Assembly: GCA_944388965.1 (NCBI GenBank)
Contig: CALXKL010000001.1
Location: 62,001 to 126,000 of the forward strand
Direction: 5' to 3'
Length of the DNA stretch: 64,000 nucleotides
DNA from: an uncultured Spirochaetales bacterium
GTDB taxonomy: Bacteria > Spirochaetota > Spirochaetia > Sphaerochaetales > Sphaerochaetaceae
How positions within the stretch are numbered: the stretch's first letter is position 1; every line of letters starts with the position of its first letter. Below, piece after piece: positions 17,922 through 19,614 of the stretch. The notes beneath the pieces are model-generated. The model searched no databases. It had not been told where the DNA came from and worked only from the letters and a program-made list of their open reading frames with translations. The position numbers were made by a program, and so were the translations under genes.

Positions 17922-18084
17922 CCCGTACCGGCATCTCCATTCCGGCAAAGGTGGTTCATGACGACCCTGAATTCCGGCGTATCGGGCAGTGGTGTATCAC
18001 AATGACCCGATTGGAGTCCATGTAGGTGCGCCGGAACACGAGGCTTTGGATGCAAGTCCTTGTCCTGCAATGACTTGTCCCGTC

Positions 18085-18100
18085 TGGCACGCTCAATGCA
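18085..18100 (+). promoter_or_regulatory. Sigma-54-type -24/-12 promoter upstream of hsp20
   Basis: TGGCACG-N4-ATGCA matches the sigma-54 consensus TGGCACG-N4-TTGCA at 11 of 12 fixed positions, with GG (18086-18087) and GC (18098-18099) at the required spacing. The start site would be near 18111, about 30 nt before the first hsp20 ATG. No rpoN or enhancer-binding protein gene is in this window. Confidence 0.5.
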
Positions 18101-18143
18101 GATATGATGGCACAGATACTTGAGAACAATCAGGAGGCCGGAT

Positions 18144-18554
18144 ATGGCAAAGGATATTGCAGGATACACGGACAGACAGATGATGAAGGACTTCGACAGG
18201 ATGCTCGACTCCTTCTTCGGACATGCGGACAGGATGCCCAGCGTGGACATCAGGCAGGACAGGGATTCCTACGTGGTGAGGGCCCGGGTGGCGGGGTACA
18301 GGCCGGACGAGCTCAATGCGTACGTCGAGGACCACGTGCTGCACATCGTGGGACGCAGGGCCGATGAGGAGAAGGGAAACAGGAAGTACATCACCCGCGA
18401 ACGCAGATGCGAGAGCTTCGAGAGGAGCTTCACGCTGCCCGAGGACGCCGACGAGCAGAGGCTGGAGGCGAGCTGCAGGAAGGGTGTGCTGGAGCTGGTG
18501 GTCCCGAAGAAGGCGAAGGCCGAGCCCAGAAGGATAGAGGTGAAGGTCAACTGA
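18144..18554 (+). CDS. Small heat-shock protein, Hsp20 family
   Basis: ATP-independent holdase. 136 residues from the ATG at 18144 with AGGAGG (18132-18137). The alpha-crystallin domain runs from about residue 32 to the end: PSVDIRQDRDSYVVRARVAGY, VLHIVGRR, RSFTLPEDAD, and the closing GVLELVVPKKA. The N-terminal arm is short. A second hsp20 follows 28 bp downstream. A sigma-54-like promoter lies before it; no CIRCE element is visible. Confidence 0.93.
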   Translation: MAKDIAGYTDRQMMKDFDRMLDSFFGHADRMPSVDIRQDRDSYVVRARVAGYRPDELNAYVEDHVLHIVGRRADEEKGNRKYITRERRCESFERSFTLPEDADEQRLEASCRKGVLELVVPKKAKAEPRRIEVKVN

Positions 18555-19314: not shown

Positions 19315-19614
19315 TCACATTTCAAAACCTTTGTCGACGAGCTTGTGGATCAGTTTTTTCAGCTCTTCTTTCGAATCGAGTGCGGAGGATGCATATTCCT
19401 CCTGATTGTCGTGAAACAGCTGCTGTACCGGAACATCCAGTGCCAGGGATATCTTCTCGATGGTGGTGAGGGTGGGGTTCCTGCGACCTGACTCGATGTC
19501 GCCGATCATTCCCGGAGACAGGTCGGCAAGTTCTGCAAGCATCACCTGGGTAAGGCCTTTCTGCTTCCTTATCGCCTTGAGGTTCTCGATGAATATCTCG
19601 CTTGCAAGTCGCAT
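19315..19614 (-). CDS. XRE family transcriptional regulator
   Basis: 99 residues. The HTH spans about residues 10-65: NLKAIRKQKGLTQVMLAELADLSPGMIGDIESGRRNPTLTTIEK is split over the usual five helices, with the C-terminal tail EELKKLIHKLVDKGF probably for dimerisation. It is divergent from the Big2 lipoprotein, and a 22-bp near-palindrome sits between them. A perfect TATAAT lies seven bases before the ATG with no Shine-Dalgarno, which suggests leaderless translation. Probably an autoregulator and repressor of the lipoprotein. Confidence 0.88.
   Translation of the reverse strand: MRLASEIFIENLKAIRKQKGLTQVMLAELADLSPGMIGDIESGRRNPTLTTIEKISLALDVPVQQLFHDNQEEYASSALDSKEELKKLIHKLVDKGFEM

Follow-up and report, generated by a model that had tools for sequence, protein, structure and literature searches.

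Two small heat-shock genes lie downstream from a sigma-54-type promoter

We analyzed a 64,000-nt stretch of DNA (the window) from an uncultured Spirochaetales bacterium, a gut spirochaete of the Sphaerochaetaceae (GCA_944388965.1, contig CALXKL010000001.1, positions 62,001-126,000 of the forward strand). The source genome (G000) is 2.1 Mb in 17 contigs and is 97% complete. The window contains two hsp20 genes (Table 1), the second of which starts 28 bp past the first, and we presume that they form one operon. The segment duplicated on contig C4 is a second hsp20 operon with the same promoter and activator site 2 (12/14 in that copy). The two copies here are near-identical, and other species of the genus likewise have two close hsp20 copies, a pattern that suggests repeated duplication or gene conversion. 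An open reading frame for a small helix-turn-helix regulator, Cro/CI-like by eye, is downstream of the operon (19315-19614, minus strand).

Table 1. Features of the hsp20 locus and candidate regulatory genes elsewhere in the genome
Feature	Location	Strand	Details
Candidate activator site 1, 9/14, weak alone	17952..17968	+	41 bp before site 2
Candidate activator site 2, TGTATCACAATGACCCG, 11/14	17993..18009	+	93 bp before the -24 GG
Sigma-54 -24/-12 promoter, TGGCACG-CTCA-ATGCA, TGGCACGCTCAATGCA	18085..18100	+	unique in window; family conservation
Predicted transcription start (+1)	about 18111	+	by convention, predicted from sequence
Shine-Dalgarno AGGAGG, first hsp20 gene	18132..18137	+	from sequence
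hsp20 gene 1, 136 aa, alpha-crystallin domain	18144..18554	+	Pfam PF00011, E 5.9e-23
hsp20 gene 2, 140 aa	18583..19005	+	Pfam PF00011, E 2.7e-22
Segment duplicated on contig C4 of the same genome	17962..19144	+	97%, 1151/1183 identical
AtoC/Rrp2-like regulator, kinase-linked	contig C13 (L055:2750-4102)		receiver, AAA+, HTH domains
Histidine kinase adjoining the C13 regulator	L055:1501-2772
NtrC-like regulator with its own kinase	contig C1
PspF-like activator	contig C4
Degenerate activator	contig C6		DAYSGA replaces GAFTGA

The sigma-54 promoter consensus is TGGCACG-N4-TTGCW. The near-consensus 16-mer upstream from hsp20 differs from it at a single position, an A for the T in TTGC, and matches 11 of the 12 scored positions, with GG (18086-18087) and GC (18098-18099) spaced by exactly 10 nt. 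The first-pass annotation had described TGGCACG-N4-ATGCA with exact -24/-12 geometry here; we confirmed it and found that it is the sole such match in the window. The pattern TGGCACGNNNNWTGCA had a single match in the 64 kb, counting both strands, compared to an expectation of 0.02, and 1 of 100 shuffled windows had a match. Placing +1 by convention 12 nt past the -12 C, transcription would start at 18111 and the predicted leader to the hsp20 ATG would be 33 nt. Immediately 5' of the -24 box (18051-18082) there is a near-repeat, TGCAAGTCCTTGTCC / TGCAATGACTTGTCC, and a similar inverted repeat is found in the close species G014.

It is possible, and in our judgment improbable, that the operon is under dual control, with a sigma-70-type or other promoter, basal or heat-induced, acting in addition to sigma-54. 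The excerpted text of PMC4370416 cites sigma-32 and sigma-54 transcription for Escherichia coli ibpAB and ibpB, and many relatives have A-T-rich tracts 5' of the -24 box. Against dual control, there was no sigma-70-type match between 17850 and 19250, in a scan that organism-specific promoters would escape, and no CIRCE element (the HrcA/CIRCE type of control) in the window with up to three mismatches allowed. At the same tolerance, none was found in the C13 stretch (L055), which holds groES.

The promoter upstream from hsp20 is conserved across the family

The bare promoter pattern was not clearly more frequent in the source genome than its reversed control (11 versus 16 matches in one scan and 29 versus 19 in another), and the case for the promoter therefore rests on its position and conservation. 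Most of the TGGCAY-N6-TGCW sites in this genome are within open reading frames and have no palindrome of the kind described below. We found hsp20 in 11 of 16 genomes of the genus and 67 of 81 of the family, and scored an upstream region as passing if it had GG-N10-GC with at least 10 of the 12 consensus positions.

Of the 85 regions upstream from hsp20 that we scored in the family, 82 had a near-consensus site, in contrast to 0 of 85 on the antisense strand. By taxon, the site was present in 68 of 69 species and 20 of 20 genera; of these counts, that by genus is the more cautious, since the scored regions are related to one another and include near-identical duplicates. The 85 regions include L321 and L322, which were added because the first copies from genus g5 failed; they exclude second genes of operons (e.g., L039) and three further regions that were also scanned (L323-L325). 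The three failing regions are copies in G019 and G038 with GT for GC at -12, both of which have second hsp20 copies with a passing site, and a region in G047 that is cut by a contig end. In G011 and G012, which are without hsp20, the palindrome is within ~110 bases of contig ends; the absence of hsp20 there fits assembly collapse of a duplicated operon. Outside the family, 27 of 50 hsp20 upstream regions passed (antisense, 0 of 50), representing 12 of 25 families, in a phylum sample made up of the best 30 loci plus 20 that we picked by hand from a longer list of matches.

Other genes served as a control. Among 167 regions upstream from open reading frames in 27 stretches there were 11 sites, two before hsp20 and nine before a gene for a sigma-70-family factor, and none before any other gene. 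That the promoter match is due to chance or is a fossil, and that hsp20 is transcribed in some other way, is extremely improbable: the promoter, predicted from sequence, has one mismatch at -12, but the sites were confined to hsp20 and the sigma factor gene in this control, the 82 of 85 versus 0 of 85 comparison is decisive, and the upstream palindromes are conserved. We rejected a chance match based on the expectation of 0.02, the open reading frame control, and the family conservation.

Based on these results, we have high confidence that the sequence at 18085-18100 is a real sigma-54 promoter, as judged from its sequence and conservation. The first-pass proposal of such a promoter ahead of small heat-shock genes is supported. 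Its description of sigma-54 control as unusual holds against textbook expectation; it does not hold within the family, where this is the rule, and E. coli ibpB is a precedent in the excerpt of PMC4370416. Switching hsp20 with sigma-54 appears to be an unusual and apparently ancient arrangement in this family.

Paired palindromes are upstream from the promoter

The palindrome TGTGTCA-N3-TGACACA recurs 5' of the hsp20 promoters of the family and is weaker in the window. The best palindrome matched at least 12 of 14 positions in 54 of 78 upstream regions, versus 5 of 3900 shuffles, a comparison that is flattering because the consensus was drawn from the same sequences. The fixed spacing of the palindromes (23 of 34 pairs are separated by 40-42 bp) and their presence upstream from the sigma factor gene are independent of that bias. 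The first-pass annotation had proposed a search for activator sites in 18000-18080; candidates exist, and they are slightly farther upstream (17952-17968 and 17993-18009). Both are degenerate (9 and 11 of 14), and about 40% of shuffles reached a best site of at least 9/14. Their separation of 41 bp fits that seen in the family. Among 29 TGGCAY-N6-TGCW sites in this genome, a palindrome of at least 11/14 was found only at hsp20 (two copies) and the sigma factor gene. In G021, the hsp20 promoter was present and no palindrome of 11 or more was found.

The genome encodes RpoN and several candidate activators

The first-pass annotation had proposed looking in the genome for rpoN and an enhancer-binding protein gene, and both are present. 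There was one match to rpoN (C8:30773-31249, PF04552, E 4.9e-55), the product of which has a readable ARRTV-KYR motif that we take to be the RpoN box. The search for sigma-54 activator genes gave four strong matches (Table 1) and one weak match that reads as a ClpB-like ATPase. Three of the four strong activators (C13, C1, and PspF-like) have the GAFTGA motif. The C13 regulator and its kinase were most similar to NCBIfam AtoC and AtoS, both with scores under the cut-off. Among 31 activator sequences compared, C13-type regulators were found in most genomes examined, with 57-93% identity to the copy in the source genome. Sigma-54 promoters also precede two pspA-like genes (C4:21412-21427 and C17:71508-71523), one of which adjoins pspF.

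A gene for a sigma-70-family factor shares the promoter and palindromes

Searching 28 genomes with the palindrome as a pattern led us to a gene for a short sigma-70-family factor, which in the source genome is 293 aa with regions 1.2 to 4. In 13 genomes, a sigma-54 promoter precedes this gene and is in most cases accompanied by two palindromes spaced by 40-41 bp. We took 14 stretches surrounding the C13-type activator, and 11 of them contained the gene with its sigma-54 promoter; it was not found with a promoter of at least 10/12 in the stretches from G080, G004, and G033, and in that from G080 the gene is present but lacks a promoter that passes. The factor in the source genome (on C13) scored 180 bits against RpoH (cut-off 323) and 269.5 bits against the NCBIfam RpoS model (cut-off 378.7). 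No RpoH-type factor was identified in this comparison, which among the sigma genes of the source genome covered the C13 factor.

Pairs of palindromes are also found at the head of the cluster that runs from murG to the activator gene in G010, G012, G013, and G014, and in weaker form in G000. No sigma-54 promoter was seen at the head of this cluster, and the position of the palindromes suggests autoregulation. We considered groES as a sigma-54 target and rejected it, as the palindromes close to the activator precede the sigma factor gene or stand at the murG head, and do not precede groES.

We propose that RNA polymerase with sigma-54 would transcribe the hsp20-hsp20 operon from 18085-18100, and that an AAA+ enhancer-binding response regulator, on tandem palindromes ~90 and ~130 bp upstream, would switch the operon on. 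Because the palindromes and the sigma-54 promoter are common to hsp20 and the sigma factor gene, the two would belong to one stress circuit that acts through RpoN. The likeliest activator would be the Rrp2/AtoC-like C13 regulator with its own histidine kinase; based on the shared palindrome, the linkage of the sigma factor gene to this activator, and its ubiquity, we infer that the C13 regulator binds the palindromes. The signal would presumably be protein or envelope stress. From the sequence comparisons, we consider it very probable that hsp20 is transcribed with sigma-54 from 18085-18100 under control of a palindrome-bound response regulator, most likely of the C13 type, in a circuit shared with the sigma factor, and have moderate confidence that the hsp20 promoter is part of a conserved circuit. 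In G026, an 88%-complete genome, there is hsp20 with the promoter and the palindrome, yet no activator was found.

A different activator working at a real promoter, either the C1-type NtrC-like regulator with its kinase or PspF, seems unlikely. The genome encodes both, each with a GAFTGA motif, and PspF adjoins a pspA that itself has a sigma-54 promoter. However, the hsp20 palindrome is absent at pspA (no more than 9/14), the C13 type is the activator linked to the sigma factor gene that shares this palindrome, and the promoters of candidate small RNAs (below) have a different palindrome, TTTCACACTGTGAAA, which suits a second activator.

Relationship to known sigma-54 systems

Sigma-54 control of small heat-shock genes is of a known kind; its family-wide use together with a shared enhancer and a linked sigma factor is a new form of it. 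The hsp20 promoter resembles that of E. coli ibpB, a small heat-shock gene for which a sigma-54 promoter is cited in the excerpt of PMC4370416. There, sigma-54 supplements sigma-32, whereas here the site is family-wide and accompanied by conserved tandem palindromes. The PspF-pspA system, which is present in this genome too, also has a sigma-54 stress promoter, but its activator is of a class without a receiver domain and it lacks the TGTGTCA palindrome.

In a 2025 comparison, IbpA/COG0071 is among the sigma-54-linked chaperones and grpE of Bacteroides thetaiotaomicron is named among chaperone genes predicted or demonstrated to depend on sigma-54; the enrichment is in Planctomycetota and Bacteroidota, and spirochaete hsp20 is not named in the excerpted text (PMC12316311). 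There is no hsp20 target in the excerpt of a Desulfovibrio sigma-54 regulome (PMC4641369), and an Hsp20 gene appears in a table on Geobacter IHF mutants in the excerpt of PMC7962754. According to the part of PMC12655853 consulted, Leptospira interrogans has no RpoH. We recognized no report of sigma-54 control of spirochaete hsp20 in open-licence full text.

There is also a likeness to the Rrp2-RpoN-RpoS pathway of Borrelia, another spirochaete, in which, according to the excerpt of PMC11109971, no gene other than rpoS has been identified as having a sigma-54 promoter. Shared features are an activator of the response-regulator class, RpoN, and a sigma-70-family gene preceded by a sigma-54 promoter, as judged from gene features against the published description (PMC11109971, in excerpt). 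In our genome, the activator gene beside the histidine kinase gene encodes receiver, AAA+, and HTH domains, and a sigma-70-family gene is under a sigma-54 promoter. In contrast to Borrelia, hsp20 is also a candidate target and there are conserved tandem palindromes. A paper by Blevins (2009) reportedly terms the Borrelia activation enhancer-independent in its title.

We tentatively suggest, as a joint reading that is somewhat less likely to be right than wrong, that an ancient spirochaete circuit of a kinase, an Rrp2-like activator, and RpoN runs hsp20 and the sigma factor via tandem enhancers, that Borrelia RpoN-RpoS is a remnant minus the enhancers and hsp20, and that RpoN also drives the anti-Shine-Dalgarno small RNAs. 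Spirochaetes would gain a defined sigma-54 route to control of small heat-shock genes, the conserved enhancer and short candidate regulon of which are testable in cultured, harmless members of the family, and the comparison could explain the oddity of the well-studied Borrelia pathway.

Candidate small RNAs with sigma-54 promoters

Two candidate small RNAs are arranged in tandem at C17:78330-78570 in G000, and both have their own sigma-54 promoter and terminator. A search of Rfam with this contig end gave nothing over the gathering score and two microRNA matches below it. What we presume to be the 5' part of the candidates, CAGAGCAACAGTTTTTT...CCTCCTT (anti-Shine-Dalgarno), is nearly invariant, and a palindrome that differs from that of hsp20, TTTCACACTGTGAAA, recurs 5' of their promoters. 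The small RNAs of the family appear from sequence to be sigma-54-dependent; the small-RNA pattern, a few matches to which look like chance, was found in 80 of 91 genomes of the family and 18 of 22 genera, compared to one match for the reversed control.
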